From contig NZ_KB903229.1 in assembly GCF_000379625.1 (NCBI RefSeq), positions 10,025 to 74,024 of the forward strand: DNA of 64,000 bases, in the 5' to 3' direction. The position numbers and the translations under genes were made by a program. The DNA is from Actinomycetospora chiangmaiensis DSM 45062 (lineage in GTDB: Bacteria; Actinomycetota; Actinomycetes; Mycobacteriales; Pseudonocardiaceae). The notes under the pieces were generated by a model. It was given only the letters and a program-made list of their open reading frames with translations. It was not told where the DNA came from and did not search any database. Position 1 is the stretch's first letter. Every line of letters begins with the position of its first letter. Below are positions 5,001 through 42,525 of this stretch, one piece after another.

Positions 5001-5022
5001 GCCCCCGGGGCACGATGTGGGC

Positions 5023-5808
5023 ATGCAGGACGTCGGCGTGCGCGGCGCCGGCATCCGGCCGATGCAGCCGGTGCCGGGGCGGTTGCCCGTGGGTGCGGAG
5101 TGGTCCTACGAGGTCGACTGGAGCGGCATCCGCCTGCTCGCCGACGTCGAGGACGGCACGCTGTGCCTGCGCACGCTCGAGGGCGACGACGTCACGGCCC
5201 GGTTCCCGGAGTTCGCGCCGCTGGCCGACGTGGTGCCCGACGGGCTGTTCGACGGCGAGGCGGTGCTGCTCGACGCCGGTCAGCCGTCGTCCCTCGCGCT
5301 GTTCGACCGGCTGCGCCGCGCCGATCCGCGCAAGGCCCGCACGTTGGCGCGCGCCCGTCCGGCGATCCTCATGGTCTACGACGTGCTGCGGCTCTACGGG
5401 GTCCCGCTGACGGCGCGCCCGCTCGACGAGCGCCGCGCCACGCTCGGGCGGCTCAGCCTCGACGAGGTCGGGCGCATCCAGGTCTCCCCGGTGTACGACG
5501 ACGGGCCCGCGCTGCTCGCCGGGGTCCGGGAGCAGGGGCTGCCGGGGGTCATGGCGCGCCGCCGCGACACGCCCTACGACGCCGACGCCGGCGAGGACTG
5601 GCTGCGCGTCGTGGCCCCGGCCGAGGCGCCGACCGCGCCGACCGCCGCCACGGCCGTCGACCTCCCCACCGCCGAGCAGCCCCCGGCCGGCCCGGCGCTG
5701 TCCGCGCTGCCGCCGGCGGAGCGCCCGTCCGGCCCCGCCCCGTCGTCGGGAAAGGTCCCGCGGGGTCGGCACAGTCGGGGGCAGGAGGAACCGCCCGGGC
5801 TGTGGTGA
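5023..5808 (+). CDS. Degenerate LigD-type DNA ligase-domain protein beside ku
   Basis: A 261-residue protein matching the adenylation domain of ATP-dependent LigD/LigC ligases but with the catalytic residues changed. The motif I region reads YEVDWSGIRLL, where active enzymes have KWDGxR: Asp32 replaces the adenylated Lys and Ser34 the Asp, while Gly35 and Arg37 remain. Motif III is kept (FDGEAV, 76-81), as is the YDVL segment (119-122). Motif IV is PGVMARR instead of EGVIAKR. The OB-fold domain is missing and replaced by a Pro/Ala-rich tail from about residue 200. It is divergent from ku and ends 6 bp from the convergent tyrA. The start is uncertain (GTG 5017, ATG 5023 or ATG 5062); none has a good ribosome site. 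A role as a regulator or Ku partner is inference. Confidence 0.75.
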   Translation: MQDVGVRGAGIRPMQPVPGRLPVGAEWSYEVDWSGIRLLADVEDGTLCLRTLEGDDVTARFPEFAPLADVVPDGLFDGEAVLLDAGQPSSLALFDRLRRADPRKARTLARARPAILMVYDVLRLYGVPLTARPLDERRATLGRLSLDEVGRIQVSPVYDDGPALLAGVREQGLPGVMARRRDTPYDADAGEDWLRVVAPAEAPTAPTAATAVDLPTAEQPPAGPALSALPPAERPSGPAPSSGKVPRGRHSRGQEEPPGLW

Positions 5809-10936: not shown

Positions 10937-11632
10937 ATGACACCGTCCCGCGCGGCCGGGCCCGACCTGGCTGCACCACCGCGGCCTCGTCCGGACCCCA
11001 GCCCGGACGCCAGCGCCTCCGGACCCGCTCCGGTCGATGCGGACGTCACCGACGCCGATCTCGTCGCCCGCCTCGCGGCCCGCGACACCGGCGCCCTCGA
11101 CCTCCTCTACGCCCGCCACGGGCGTGCGGCCTACTCGCTCGCCCGCCGCATCTGCGTGGACGAGGGGCTCGCCGAGGACGTCGTGCAGGAGGTGTTCCTC
11201 GTCCTGTGGCGGGACCCGGAGCGGTTCGACCGCACCCGCGGCTCGGTGATCAGCTGGCTGCTGACGCTCGTGCACCACAAGGCGGTCGACGCGGTCCGGC
11301 GGGAGGCGACCCGCCGTCGCCACCACGTGCCCACCGACGAGCCCGAGGTCGGCCTCGAATCGTCCGCGGTCCCTTCGGCCGACCGCGCCGCACTGGGCTC
11401 GGTCATCGCCGAGCACGTCCGCGCCGCCCTGCGCCACCTCCCCTCCGAGCAGCGCCAGGCGCTCGGCCTCGCCTACTACGGCGGCTACACCCAGCGGGAG
11501 GTCGCCTCGATCACGGGCGTGCCGATCGGCACCGTGAAGTCCCGCATGTTCACCGGGGTGGCCAAGCTGCGGGTGCTCCTCGCCCCGGTCCTCGGCACGT
11601 CGGGCCTCGAGCTGCTCGGGGACACCTGGTGA
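10937..11632 (+). CDS. sigK: ECF sigma factor, SigK type
   Basis: A group 4 (ECF) RNA polymerase sigma factor of 231 residues. A Pro/Ala-rich N-terminus (about 35 residues) precedes region 2 (DLVARLAARDTGALDLLYARHGRAAYSLARRI, then EDVVQEVFLVLWRDPERFD). Region 4 carries the helix-turn-helix REVASITGVPIGTVKSRMF. Its stop overlaps the start of the anti-sigma gene by GTGA, so the two are translationally coupled. The pattern is that of SigK/RskA pairs. The upstream 255-bp gap contains a TTCCCGACGACGGG copy (10803-10816); I could not identify an autoregulated promoter with confidence. Confidence 0.88.
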   Translation: MTPSRAAGPDLAAPPRPRPDPSPDASASGPAPVDADVTDADLVARLAARDTGALDLLYARHGRAAYSLARRICVDEGLAEDVVQEVFLVLWRDPERFDRTRGSVISWLLTLVHHKAVDAVRREATRRRHHVPTDEPEVGLESSAVPSADRAALGSVIAEHVRAALRHLPSEQRQALGLAYYGGYTQREVASITGVPIGTVKSRMFTGVAKLRVLLAPVLGTSGLELLGDTW

Positions 11633-12450
11633 GCGCCGACGGGATCCCGCACGACGGCGAGCTCGCGGGCGCCGTCGTCGGCCGTGCCCTGCACGCCCTC
11701 GAACCGGAGGAGGAGGACCGCGTCACCGAGCACCTGCGCACGTGCGCGCCGTGCCGGTCGCTGCTCTCCGAGACCCACGCGACCATGGCGGCCCTCGCCC
11801 ACGCGGTCGCGGACAGCGAACCGCCCTCCGGGCTGCGCGGCCGCATCCTCGCCGCCGCGGACGCCGAGCCGGCGCGCCCGACCGCCCCGGCCCCCGTCGT
11901 GCCGGTCGCGGCGGTGGCGCCGGCCGCCGCCGCGGTCCCCGACCCCCCGCCGCCGCGGACCGCCCCGGCGCGGTCGCCGCGCCGTCGCAGTGCGGCCGTG
12001 CTCGCGCTCGTCGCGGTGGTGGCGGGCGTGGTCGTGTTCTCCGCCCGGGGGATCGCCACCGGCCCGGACACCGACGCGCGGGCCGCGTCCGCCACCCGCG
12101 CGGACCAGGTGATCAGCTCCGCCGAGGCCCGGAACCCGGACGTGCGCCACGCGGCGCTGCTCCAGCCGGGCGGCGCCGTGCTCGCGGTCGTGCTGGACGA
12201 CCAGGCCGGCCCCCGGGTCGTGCCCGTCGACATGCCGGACATCGGTCCGAACCGCACCTTCGTGCTCTGGCGCGTCGCGGGCGGGACGGCGACCGCGGTG
12301 GGCACGTTCGACGCCGCGGGCGGCTTCACCCCGACCGGCACCCGTCCGTCCACCGGGCTCTCCCAGGGGGCGTACGCGGTGTCGGCCGAGGCCGCCGGTC
12401 CGGTGCCGCCGCGCCCGTCGACGGTGGTGGCCAGCGGGCCGCTCATCTGA
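11629..12450 (+). CDS. rskA: Anti-sigma factor, RskA type
   Basis: A membrane-bound anti-sigma factor of 273 residues, the cognate inhibitor of the preceding sigma factor. The N-terminal cytoplasmic domain carries the zinc-anti-sigma motif His35-x3-Cys39-x2-Cys42 (HLRTCAPC). After an Ala/Pro-rich linker a single transmembrane helix runs from about 121 to 138 (SAAVLALVAVVAGVVVFSA). The extracytoplasmic RskA C-domain follows (IGPNRTFVLWRVAGG and a C-terminal SAEAAGPVPPRPSTVVASG). Release probably involves regulated proteolysis, as known for RskA. It begins at GTG 11629, inside the sigK stop. Confidence 0.88.
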   Translation: MSADGIPHDGELAGAVVGRALHALEPEEEDRVTEHLRTCAPCRSLLSETHATMAALAHAVADSEPPSGLRGRILAAADAEPARPTAPAPVVPVAAVAPAAAAVPDPPPPRTAPARSPRRRSAAVLALVAVVAGVVVFSARGIATGPDTDARAASATRADQVISSAEARNPDVRHAALLQPGGAVLAVVLDDQAGPRVVPVDMPDIGPNRTFVLWRVAGGTATAVGTFDAAGGFTPTGTRPSTGLSQGAYAVSAEAAGPVPPRPSTVVASGPLI

Positions 12451-12776: not shown

Positions 12777-14570
12777 ATGGCGTCCGGTGCTGCTGCCCCC
12801 GCCGACGTGTGGCCCCGCGTCCCCGGCCCGCGCGGTGCGGCCCGGCCGATGCTGGCCTCGACCGGTGAGCTGCCCCGGGGCGCCGGGTGGGCGTTCGAGT
12901 TCGTGTGGTCCGGGCTGCGCTGCTTCGCGTACGCCCAGGACGGCGAGCTGCGCCTGATCGACGCCGACGGGCACGACGTGACGGCGGGCTTCCCGGAGGT
13001 CGGGGTGCCCGCCGCGCACGGACTGGTGCTCGACGGCGTCGTCGTCGCGAAGGACCCGGTGGGTCGGCCGAGCATGGCGCGGCTGCGTCGCCGCCGACGG
13101 GTGGCCCGGCCCTCGCGGGCCCTGGTCAGCGGCACGCCCGTCTCCTACTACGTGTTCGACGTGCTCGAGGTCGACGGCCGGTCCACCGCCCGCATGCCCT
13201 ACCGCCAGCGGCGCGAGCTGCTCACCGAGATCGACCTCGCCGGGGGGAACCTCGTCGTGCCGCCGTCGTTCACCGGCGTCGCCGCGGACGAGGTGGTCAG
13301 CACCGCCCGGCAGTACGGCCTCGAGGGCGTCGTCGCCAAGCGGCTGGAGTCGACCTACCAGAGCGGCCGGCGGTCCCGGAGCTGGATCACGGCCGAGATC
13401 ACGCAGGCGCAGGACGTCGTCGTCGGCGGGTGGTTGCCGCCGCGGGGGAGCTCCGAGGGCGTCGGCTCGTTGCTGCTCGGCGTGCCGAGCGACGGGGTGC
13501 TGCGCTACGCGGGCCGGGTGTCCACCGGCGTCACGGCCGCGGCCCGTCGCGAGATCCTCGACGCGTCGGTGGGGCTGGACCGGCTGGTCAGCCCCTTCCA
13601 CGGCGACCTCCCCGCGGACGTGCAGGCAGCTGCGCGCTGGGTCGCCCCCCGGCTGGTGGGCCGGGTGGAGCACCGTCGCTGGACGCCGACCGGCCTGTTG
13701 GGTCGGCCGGTGTGGCAGGGCCTGCGGGCGGGCACCCACCCCGCGACGGTGCACGCGCCGGTGCTGGCCGCACCGGTCGTCGCGACGGATCTCGCGCTCG
13801 ACGATCTGGAGACGGTGGAGCGGCCCCCGGTGCCCGCAGCGGGGAACACGCGGGGCGTGGACGTCGTCGCGTCGCCCGGCGCAGCCGAAGCCGCCGTGCT
13901 CGTGCCCGCCGGCGCCGCCGAGGTGCTCCTGCCCGACGTCGACGTCGAGGCGGCCCTGCGGTCGCGGTTCTCGGCCCACTTCGTGCACAACGCGTTGACC
14001 GCGATCGCGAGCTATGTGCGGGTCGACCCCACCCGGGCCCGCGAGCTGCTGAACGAGTTCGCCGACTTCACGCGCTACTCGTTCCGCACCTCCGACACGA
14101 GGACCACGGTCGCCGAGGAACTGCGCAACGCCCGGCGCTACCTCACCCTCGAGCAGGCCCGCTTCGGCGAGCGGCTCGGCGTGGAGATCACGGTGGCGCC
14201 CGAGGTGGAGAACGTCGTGCTCCCGCCGTTCGTGGTGGCGCCGCTCGTGGAGAACGCCGTGCGGCACGGCATCGAGCCCGTGCTGGGCGGCGGCACCGTG
14301 CGGATCACCGCGGCCGGCGCGGGCCCCGACTGCGTGGTGACGATCTCCGACGACGGCGCCGGGATGGGCCCGGAGGCATCCCGGGCCGCGTCGCTGGTCG
14401 ACGCCCGGCACGGCGGGATCGCCGAGGTCGACCGCCGCCTGCGCGCCGCGTACGGCGGGCGGTGCGACCTGCACGTCGACAGCCGGGCCGGGAGCGGGAC
14501 CACGGTCCGGCTTCGCGTCCCGGCCACGCACGCCGAGGAGCCGCCGGCCGGCCGGCTCCTCGTGGGCTGA
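12777..14570 (+). CDS. Fusion of catalytically dead LigD-type ligase domains and a LytS-type histidine kinase
   Basis: A 597-residue two-part protein. Residues about 20-330 align with the LigD ligase module (adenylation plus OB domains), including ARPMLAS, EGVVAKR (183-189), SEGVGSLLLGVP and RYAGRVSTGVT. Key residues are lost: motif I is FEFVWSGLRC, with Val43 for the adenylated Lys and Ser45 for Asp; motif III is LDGVVV, without Glu; motif V has Thr205 and Glu207 instead of two Lys. Residues about 385-585 form a LytS/YehU-type kinase: FSAHFVHNALTAI (His401), LVENAVRHG (Asn493), DDGAGM (525-530) and GSGTTVRL. No transmembrane segment is visible, so the kinase should be cytosolic with the ligase module as its sensor (inference). 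GGGGAGG precedes ATG 12777. No response regulator is adjacent. It lies downstream of sigK/rskA. Confidence 0.85.
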   Translation: MASGAAAPADVWPRVPGPRGAARPMLASTGELPRGAGWAFEFVWSGLRCFAYAQDGELRLIDADGHDVTAGFPEVGVPAAHGLVLDGVVVAKDPVGRPSMARLRRRRRVARPSRALVSGTPVSYYVFDVLEVDGRSTARMPYRQRRELLTEIDLAGGNLVVPPSFTGVAADEVVSTARQYGLEGVVAKRLESTYQSGRRSRSWITAEITQAQDVVVGGWLPPRGSSEGVGSLLLGVPSDGVLRYAGRVSTGVTAAARREILDASVGLDRLVSPFHGDLPADVQAAARWVAPRLVGRVEHRRWTPTGLLGRPVWQGLRAGTHPATVHAPVLAAPVVATDLALDDLETVERPPVPAAGNTRGVDVVASPGAAEAAVLVPAGAAEVLLPDVDVEAALRSRFSAHFVHNALTAIASYVRVDPTRARELLNEFADFTRYSFRTSDTRTTVAEELRNARRYLTLEQARFGERLGVEITVAPEVENVVLPPFVVAPLVENAVRHGIEPVLGGGTVRITAAGAGPDCVVTISDDGAGMGPEASRAASLVDARHGGIAEVDRRLRAAYGGRCDLHVDSRAGSGTTVRLRVPATHAEEPPAGRLLVG

Positions 14571-34904: not shown

Positions 34905-36758
34905 CTACCCCGTGATCGGGACCGAGATGCCGAGCGCCCGGCGGACGAAGGCGATCTCGGCGGCCGTGTGGTTCAGCGTCTCGGACACCACGAGCGACCC
35001 GTGCCCGGCGTCGTAGCGGACCATCGCGTAGGACTTGTCCAGGGCGGCCAGCCGGTCCAGGTAGTTGTCGATCTGCCGGATCGGGCAGCGCGGGTCGTTC
35101 TCCCCCGCCAGCACGAGTACCGGGGCGGTGACCTCGTCGACGTAGGTCAGCGGGGACGCCGTCCGGTAGCGCTCCGGCACCTCGGTCGGGGAGCCCCCGA
35201 ACAGCGAGCGGTCGAACGCCCGCAGCGGCTCCATCTCGTCCTCGTAGGCCGCGACGTAGTCCGCCACCGGCACGCCCGCCGCGCCGACGGCCCACCGCTG
35301 CGGCTGCACGCCGAGCCCGAGCAGCGTCAGGTAGCCGCCCCAGGACCAGCCCTCGAGCACGCACGCCGCCGGGTCGGCCAGCCCGGACTCCACGGCCCAC
35401 GACTGCACGGCCGCGATGTCCTCGAGCTCGGTGGTGCCCGGGCGCCCCTCGATGGCGTCCCGCCACGCGGAGCCGTAGCCCGAGGAGCCGCGGTAGTTCA
35501 CGTGCACGACGGCGAAGCCCGCGTCCAGCCACACCGCGCGCACCGCGGAGTAGCGGTCCTCGTCCGCGGCCTGCGGCCCGCCGTGGATCATGAACAGGGT
35601 CGGGACCGGGCCCGTGGTGCCGGCCGGGCGCGAGTACAGCGCGTGCACGTCGCCGCCGGGCCCGGGCACCCAGGCGTCCTCGAGCACCACCGACGGCGCG
35701 GGGCGCTCCCCGGGCGGCGTCAGCAGGACCTCGTCGGTGCCGTCCGGGCGCAGCACCCGCACGCTCGACGGCTGTTCCGCCGAGGACCAGCCGTACTCGA
35801 CCGACCCGTCCGGGCGCACGTCCGCACCGCCGACCGAGCCGCGCGCGGTGGGCAGGTCGGTGAGCTCCCCGCTCGTCAGGTCGTAGCGGTGCAACGTGGT
35901 CCGTCCCGCCCGGGTGTGCGCGACGATCAGGGCCGACGCGTCCGGGTAGAACCCCGCCGAGAGGTCCCCGGGCAGGTCGATGGCCAGCTCGGTCTCGGTG
36001 CCCGTCAGCGGGTCCCAGATCAGCAGCTCGTCGCGCCCGCGCCGTTCGTGCTGCACGAGCAGCCGCGGGTCGCCCGCGACGGGCGCGAACTCCACCGGCT
36101 CGACGCCGAGCCCCTCGCCGTCGTACAGGTCCGCCACCGCCGAGCCGTCCTCGACGCGGAGCACGCGGATCGCGGGGTGGCGGGAGTCGCCGTGCTCGGA
36201 GTGGGAGATCGCGAGCAGGGTCTCGTCGCGGGAGAGCGCGCCGATCCCGGCGTCCTCGGTGTGGGCGTAGACCGTGCGGAGCGCGGCCCCGCCGACCTGG
36301 ACCGCGAGGGTCGAGCCGTCGTCGGTCGACCAGCCGATCGCGGTGGTGGTGGCGCCGAGGTCGAGGCCCGCCGGGTAGCCGCGCTCGGCGCCGGCGACGG
36401 CGGGCTCCGCCTTCCCGACGTCGGGGGTGAACGGCTCGCGCACCCAGGTGCCGAACTCGTCGCCGTCGGTGTCGTCGAACCACCAGATCCACGCGCCGTC
36501 GGTGGAGACCGTGGCGCCGCGGGTGCCGTTCGGCCGGTCGGTGACCCGGCGGTGGTCGTCGGTGGCGCGGTCCCAGGCGTAGACCTCCCAGGTGCCGCTG
36601 GCGTTCGAGGAGTAGACGCTGCGCTCCGGGGCGTCACGGGCCCAGTCGGGCACCGAGATACGGGCGGCGGTGAACCGCCCGCGCCAGCGGGTCTCGGCCG
36701 CCGGGTCGGCGAACAGGGCCTCGGGGACGTCCACGGCGGGATCGCGTCGGGTCTCCAC
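34905..36758 (-). CDS. S9 family peptidase (prolyl oligopeptidase-like)
   Basis: A 617-residue serine peptidase: an N-terminal propeller (VYSSNASGTWEVYAWDRATDD, WIWWFDDTDGDEFGTWV) and a C-terminal alpha/beta hydrolase domain with PTLFMIHGGPQAADED, the nucleophile EGWSWGGYLTLLG (Ser near residue 471), Asp in AGENDPRCP and His in YDAGHGSLV. The GTG at 36758 is preferred; upstream in-frame sequence is arginine-rich and not family-like. It is the second S9 peptidase in the window and is only distantly similar to the one at 22506. It is divergent from the giant carboxylase. Confidence 0.88.
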   Translation of the reverse strand: METRRDPAVDVPEALFADPAAETRWRGRFTAARISVPDWARDAPERSVYSSNASGTWEVYAWDRATDDHRRVTDRPNGTRGATVSTDGAWIWWFDDTDGDEFGTWVREPFTPDVGKAEPAVAGAERGYPAGLDLGATTTAIGWSTDDGSTLAVQVGGAALRTVYAHTEDAGIGALSRDETLLAISHSEHGDSRHPAIRVLRVEDGSAVADLYDGEGLGVEPVEFAPVAGDPRLLVQHERRGRDELLIWDPLTGTETELAIDLPGDLSAGFYPDASALIVAHTRAGRTTLHRYDLTSGELTDLPTARGSVGGADVRPDGSVEYGWSSAEQPSSVRVLRPDGTDEVLLTPPGERPAPSVVLEDAWVPGPGGDVHALYSRPAGTTGPVPTLFMIHGGPQAADEDRYSAVRAVWLDAGFAVVHVNYRGSSGYGSAWRDAIEGRPGTTELEDIAAVQSWAVESGLADPAACVLEGWSWGGYLTLLGLGVQPQRWAVGAAGVPVADYVAAYEDEMEPLRAFDRSLFGGSPTEVPERYRTASPLTYVDEVTAPVLVLAGENDPRCPIRQIDNYLDRLAALDKSYAMVRYDAGHGSLVVSETLNHTAAEIAFVRRALGISVPITG

Positions 36759-36948
36759 GCCCCGATCATGCCCCTCCGGCCGGAGCGGCAGGGACGCCGG
36801 ACGAGGGGTAGCGCGTACCGGCGGGACCGTGTGCGCAGTTCCGCAGCCGACGGACTGGCGAGTACGCCCGGGAGACGGCAAGTTTCACGCCATGGCGTCC
36901 GACGAAGGCACCACACCGCCTCTGGCTGCATCGGGGAGGGTCGACACC

Positions 36949-42505
<5,557 letters not shown>

Positions 42506-42525
<20 letters not shown>

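Follow-up and report, generated by a model that had tools for sequence, protein, structure and literature searches.

In eukaryotes, Ku and DNA-PKcs together make up DNA-PK, in which kinase and Ku act jointly on the ends of DNA. How NHEJ is regulated in bacteria is called unclear in passages of a survey (PMC7719229). Excerpts of a report on mammalian NHEJ (PMC9638927) describe a catalytically inactive Lig4 that still promotes end joining, and in those of another (PMC9491836) the ChrS pseudokinase of Corynebacterium glutamicum dimerizes with its paralogue HrrS.

We analyzed 64,000 nucleotides of the Actinomycetospora chiangmaiensis DSM 45062 genome (here called the window), in which a single protein, P0001, joins a pseudo-ligase to a LytS-type histidine kinase (Table 1). 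Compared with the ligase domain of Mycobacterium tuberculosis LigD (PDB 1vs0, 6nhx, and 6nhz), this fusion lacks the motif I Lys, the motif III Glu, and the motif V Lys pair; it has neither the polymerase nor the phosphoesterase domain of LigD and carries a kinase at its C terminus. The canonical LytS kinase that this genome also encodes (L094:3163-4365) has the His_kinase and HATPase_c domains in common with the fusion, but it begins with a hydrophobic stretch, shows a weak GAF match, and has a LytTR gene approximately 3.5 kb downstream, whereas the fusion has the pseudo-ligase in place of that N terminus and no LytTR regulator nearby. We found no precedent for a LytS-family histidine kinase with such an input domain in the open-access NHEJ and kinase literature searched, where the architecture is not described; the accessible portions of NHEJ papers including PMC7719229 and PMC11936186 mention no such fusion. 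A preliminary description, made from the letters of the window, likewise knew of no described protein of this kind. The reading that we favor, with a probability of about one half, is a pseudo-ligase input tied to DNA-break repair that would act through the LytS-type dimerization and phospho-acceptor domain, probably together with the canonical LytS/LytTR pair.

Table 1 Coordinates of the fusion, its domains, and neighboring genes in the window
Feature	Coordinates	Strand	Evidence or position
P0001 (597 aa), fusion of a pseudo-ligase with a LytS-type histidine kinase	12777..14570	+	Pfam, AlphaFold2
Nucleotidyltransferase (NTase) domain, LigD type, residues 23-209, catalytic residues lost (V43, A63, V88, T205, E207)	12843..13404	+	Pfam, AlphaFold2, PDB match
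OB-fold domain (DNA_ligase_A_C), residues 210-325	13404..13751	+	Pfam, AlphaFold2
Linker, residues 326-392, predicted disordered, fast evolving	13752..13952	+	pLDDT, dN/dS
LytS-type dimerization/phospho-acceptor helices, residues 393-468, with H401 and N405	13953..14180	+	Pfam, alignment
HATPase_c domain, residues 469-585, N-box (VENAVRHG) and G-boxes intact in Actinomycetospora	14181..14531	+	Pfam, AlphaFold2
Ku (Ku70/Ku80 beta-barrel domain), only Ku found in this genome	3848..4897	-	Pfam 2.2e-50
Second, short pseudo-ligase, NTase only, motif I WSYEVDWSGIR without Lys	5017..5808	+	Divergent from Ku, 119-bp gap
ECF sigma factor (10937-11632) and zinc-finger anti-sigma (11629-12450)	10937..12450	+	Upstream of fusion, 326-bp gap

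Architecture of the fusion and loss of ligase residues

The gene is a single frame of 597 codons without an internal stop, running from the ATG at 12777, directly preceded by GGGGAGG, to the stop at 14570. Pfam assigned four domains above the curated cutoff, namely DNA_ligase_A_M (residues 35 to 204, 6.9e-18), DNA_ligase_A_C (226 to 317, 9e-17), His_kinase (393 to 467, 8.9e-17), and HATPase_c (486 to 584, 3.6e-10). In an AlphaFold2 model built on 32 family members (overall pLDDT of 79.0), the ligase part (residues 23 to 325) and the kinase part (approximately 398 to 585) were well defined, with pLDDT values mostly between 80 and 94 in the NTase domain and below 50 in the linker (329 to 394); with a pTM of 0.49, the model does not fix the placement of the ligase half relative to the kinase half. 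The top match of the ligase half was the LigD ligase domain of M. tuberculosis (PDB 1vs0), a fold search with the model (VIA-align) gave only ligases among the 50 matches listed, and the kinase half matched PDB 6swj by sequence (E value of 2.3e-19). Domain search and structure prediction thus recovered, in the same order, the LigD-type ligase and OB domains and the kinase half that the preliminary description had read from the translation; the His401, N box, and G box that it named are present as well. The NTase plus OB fold shares common descent with LigD-type ligases, and the N-terminal half is, to judge from sequence and modeled fold, a descendant of an NHEJ ligase that has kept the two-domain fold.

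What has not been kept is the chemistry. In the alignment with PDB 6nhz, V43 and S45 occupy the sites of the motif I Lys and Asp, V88 that of the motif III Glu, and T205 and E207 those of the motif V lysines. In a comparison of 28 fused proteins with 35 unfused ligases, limited to columns that 90% or more of the latter conserve, Lys43, Arg63, and Glu88 were found in 35/35 unfused ligases versus 0/28 fused proteins, and Lys205 in 35/35 versus 1/28; Glu183 was lost in 22 of the fused set. The motif I Lys was absent from all 32 fused proteins of the family alignment and from all 46 proteins of the genus labeled g5 (see below). P0001 therefore lacks the adenylated Lys of motif I (KxDG) that defines ATP-dependent ligases, and the fused family does not have the motif III Glu or, in all but one of the 28 proteins, the motif V Lys of an active ligase. 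The losses listed in the preliminary description stand for V43, V88, and the motif V lysines; that of the motif I Asp (S45) is real but not family-wide, being local to part of Actinomycetospora, since 17/28 fused relatives keep Asp45. From these substitutions, the ligase half is predicted to be unable to be adenylated or to seal DNA any more.

The scaffold of the domain was retained, with W38, E41, W44, G46, D128, Y194, G197, R199, and W203 present in 28/28 fused proteins, as were the pocket residues R48 (27/28) and K188 (26/28). The loss of the covalent Lys with retention of these two pocket residues leaves a possible ligand cleft, and the dead ligase half might sense a cue other than a break (RNA, a further protein, or a nucleotide, for example AMP or NAD), its linkage to Ku having been inherited from an ancestral ligase locus. 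However, K43, R63, E88, E183, and K205, the residues expected to hold or use a nucleotide, are lost or mostly lost, and we regard this alternative as quite unlikely. Outside the motifs, the fused ligase halves carry a mean net charge of +7.7 (n = 28) versus +0.3 in unfused ligases of the same genera (n = 20; Mann-Whitney p of 3e-8, with related sequences treated as independent), which is at most compatible with retained nucleic-acid binding. The same genome also encodes unfused ligases with an intact motif I (C12 and C27). Contig C24 of this genome carries yet another degenerate ligase domain, the third (L098:5849-7081), in which the motif I Lys is again missing; it is fused to a LigD 3'-phosphoesterase domain and lies close to a DNA polymerase I-like gene.

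Distribution, conservation, and origin

To survey the family for the same domain order, an alignment profile was run against 390 Pseudonocardiaceae genomes (E value of 1e-112, three candidates scored per genome), a row reaching model position 480 or beyond being counted as full span. Full-span fusions were found in 83/390 genomes belonging to 4 of 46 genera: Actinomycetospora (17 genomes) and the genera labeled here g3 (10), g38 (2), and g5 (54). Restriction to a single genus is thus ruled out. No full-span row was listed for the other 42 genera under the same settings. Within Actinomycetospora, 17/18 genomes carry the fusion, one of them cut by a contig end; none was found in the remaining genome, G014, which is 83% complete. 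One g3 genome (G150, 87% complete) gave a weaker match only and is absent from the census list. Outside Pseudonocardiaceae, no full-span match appeared among the matches listed for an order sample of 397 genomes, nor in a class sample (394 genomes, E value of 1e-108) or a phylum sample (396 genomes, E value of 1e-110); these samples were evenly drawn, with three candidates scored per genome, and remote cases can escape such strict thresholds. The kinase halves of g3 and g38 became visible by full-frame alignment, whereas pattern-based or single-sequence searches gave the ligase only.

Across seven species pairs, dN/dS values were 0.015 to 0.257 in the four folded regions versus 0.285 to 0.76 in the linker, so that both halves are, by this measure, under purifying selection. 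The preliminary description had named a frameshift or assembly error at about residues 330 to 385 as what could have joined two genes. This error, as well as chance joining, is excluded because the same architecture recurs in 83 genomes and dN/dS is low in the folded regions; distribution and selection indicate that the ligase and kinase halves are truly one protein, joined long ago and kept. The same data bear on the idea of a decaying relic or joining artifact without function. Catalytic residues are indeed gone from one half everywhere and from both halves in most g5 proteins, but the 83 genomes, the selection on the folded regions, and the invariant H401 and N405 described below make it highly improbable, and a functionless relic is already refuted by this conservation.

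Plasmid and phage records gave no sign of a mobile element, none of them matching P0001 over 80% of its length. A ligase found on a Pseudonocardia plasmid has its catalytic motifs present and no kinase. Two variants were also seen: three g5 genomes (L188, L189, and L190) have a fusion similar to those of g3 and g38, with a longer kinase half and without the helicase link described below, and one g38 genome (G054; L079 and L080) has two fusions, one near-complete and one whose kinase half ends early.

In a quick ligase tree without bootstrap, made with hand-picked rows (28 fused and 35 unfused), the fused ligase halves formed one side of a branch with an SH-aLRT of 99. A kinase-half tree of the same kind (29 fused, 21 labeled canonical, and 3 outgroup kinases, also hand-picked and without bootstrap) did not resolve the order of the fused and canonical groups, and L110, labeled canonical, fell outside the canonical clade. 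The ligase tree supports what would be a single origin of the fusion.

Gene neighborhood and Ku

In the window, the Ku gene is located 7.9 kb from the fusion. Among the 14 Actinomycetospora genomes checked, all have Ku and the short pseudo-ligase on the same contig, approximately 8 to 14 kb from the fusion. The association is tighter in g3, with Ku directly upstream on the same strand in 10/10 fusion-bearing genomes and, in the nine genomes measured, a gap of approximately 6 to 85 bp that varies with the choice of start. In g38, Ku adjoins a fusion copy, in convergent orientation, in both genomes; in G054 this Ku-adjacent copy is the one with the shortened kinase half, and no Ku was seen in the flanks fetched for the full-length copy. 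Gene linkage of the kind that marks a bacterial NHEJ system is therefore found in g3, g38, and Actinomycetospora. Ku was detected in 33/33 genomes searched. The g5 fusions showed no Ku within the fetched flanks, where a DUF3516 DEAD-box helicase was head-to-head with the fusion in 36/36 newly fetched main-type loci, a neighbor that would suit the sensing of a non-break cue considered above. That Ku is often close by is a hint that the repair of DNA breaks and signaling may be connected in a way not described before.

The same neighborhood would also suit a purely structural end-joining factor, the main rival to the reading that we favor. Here the pseudo-ligase would dimerize via the LytS helices and bridge two DNA ends, or hold an active ligase at Ku-bound ends, phosphorylation being a relic. 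In addition to the Ku operon or neighborhood, this scaffold without signaling is favored by the active unfused ligases beside the fusion in the same genome and by the mammalian inactive Lig4, which acts likewise in the excerpted report (PMC9638927). The kinase half, treated in the next section, provides evidence in both directions.

Other features of the region can be mentioned. A short pseudo-ligase match was listed in 18/18 Actinomycetospora genomes, with a stop inside the match in two, and the site of the motif I Lys holds Asp in seven distinct Actinomycetospora sequences of this gene; the g38 copy beside Ku (L079) has Arg there, and Lys occurs in none of them. The ECF sigma and anti-sigma genes lie upstream on the same strand in most Actinomycetospora loci with long enough flanks. 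Farther along the window, positions 36670 to 42525 (+) encode a single-chain acyl-CoA carboxylase of 1951 residues with biotin carboxylase, biotinyl, ACC-central, and carboxyltransferase domains.

The kinase half, its partners, and known systems

Over residues 393 to 586, P0001 and the canonical LytS kinase encoded in this genome share 53% identity. The H-box (HFxxN), with H401 and N405, is that of PF06580 and is present in 32/32 fused proteins. The N-box and G-boxes are intact in P0001 and throughout the other Actinomycetospora rows, which have the PF06580 type of ATPase domain. The g3 proteins keep the N-box Asn and the G-boxes, although kinase activity is uncertain there, because most members have Asn at the position of the N-box His. 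In addition, a Glu just after the N-box (Glu500) was found in 32/32 fused proteins and in 45/45 readable g5 proteins, the three canonical LytS kinases compared having Ala; it is a possible signature of the fused family.

Group g5 departs from this pattern. The N-box and G-boxes are lost in 7/7 g5 rows of the alignment, and among 46 proteins fetched (55 g5 genomes were listed), a single one retains the N-box Asn (N493). In 42 of them the chain stops early within the ATPase domain; three others have a longer tail, and the remaining one is truncated close to a contig end. In a structure model of a g5 protein, the helices are followed by an incomplete ATPase fold that lacks its final helices and strands. 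However, H401 and N405 are kept in 45/45 readable g5 proteins, and the H-box helix, with a mean pairwise identity of 86% (42 of the 46 proteins used), is the most conserved region of the protein, compared with 61% in the second helix, 57% in the NTase domain, 52% in the OB domain, 42% in the ATPase remnant, and 27% in the linker. Decay of the ATPase next to the best-conserved helix says that selection acts on the phospho-acceptor helix independently of the cis ATPase. For the structural end-joining factor, the missing ATPase boxes and truncated domain in most g5 proteins and the conserved dimerization helices are favorable, but pure dimerization does not demand the retention of H401 and N405, nor that of the N- and G-boxes throughout Actinomycetospora, and we consider it unlikely.

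In this genome there are two LytS kinases for a single LytTR regulator, the one located with the canonical LytS. Two LytS kinases were found in 14/14 Actinomycetospora genomes searched, with one LytTR gene in nine and two in five (G003, G005, G006, G007, and G009, in which the second lies elsewhere). In 32/33 genomes searched for the LytTR family there was no LytTR gene near the fusion, so that a dedicated LytTR regulator beside it, as adjoins LytS-type kinases, is rejected for these. The exception is G200, of g5, where a LytTR gene located 5.6 kb away could encode a local partner of the fusion.

Under a pseudo-ligase input tied to DNA-break repair, the ligase half would most likely still dock on ends or nicks in DNA, or on a repair complex that contains Ku, as suggested by the gene context, the retained fold, and the more basic make-up. 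Via the linker, its occupancy would then determine in which state the LytS-type helices, a dimer bearing His401, are held. The cis ATPase looks intact in Actinomycetospora, g3, and g38 and may phosphorylate His401 there; in most g5 proteins, where that domain has decayed, His401 would depend for any phosphorylation on a different LytS kinase that acts in trans within a mixed dimer. The most likely destination of the output would be the canonical LytS/LytTR pair, because no other LytTR regulator was found in this genome; the kinase half derives from relatives of that pair. The preliminary description had guessed at a sensor of DNA ends, nicks, ATP, or NHEJ status controlling a phosphorelay; its NHEJ link gained from Ku being upstream in g3 and adjacent in g38, but a self-contained phosphorelay cannot serve the whole family, given that no dedicated LytTR regulator was found and that the ATP-binding boxes of g5 are mostly lost.

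A repair ligase turned into a signaling or scaffolding module would show how bacteria, in this case some soil actinobacteria, could couple double-strand-break repair to gene regulation. The g5 lineage, with its decaying ATPase and preserved phospho-acceptor helix, offers a natural setting in which to test whether one paralogous kinase phosphorylates another in trans, and the idea is directly testable because the gene is conserved in culturable non-model actinomycetes.

Each half of the proposed mechanism appears possible from the precedents of inactive Lig4 and ChrS, as far as the excerpted reports go. The fusion resembles inactive mammalian DNA ligase IV in being a ligase without catalysis and would share with it an end-joining role, although the latter is described in the excerpts (PMC9638927) as an engineered point mutant, eukaryotic and without a kinase. 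ChrS, like the decayed g5 fusions, is a histidine kinase without a working ATPase domain, but it is, in the sections of PMC9491836 concerned, a laboratory-evolved membrane heme sensor with no DNA-repair link. DNA-PK, a subject of passages in PMC11936186, is a PI3-kinase-like Ser/Thr kinase and has a fold unrelated to that of the fusion; the tie of the fusion to Ku is one of gene linkage. We raise only tentatively, as a rather doubtful extension, that the fusion could be a convergent bacterial counterpart of DNA-PK, in which a Ku-linked dead ligase would recognize breaks or stalled end joining and convert them into His phosphorylation. It would feed a LytTR regulon either directly or, in members with a decayed ATPase, as the partner that the canonical LytS phosphorylates in trans. 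If this is true, a repair enzyme would have been turned into a two-component input that senses breaks.
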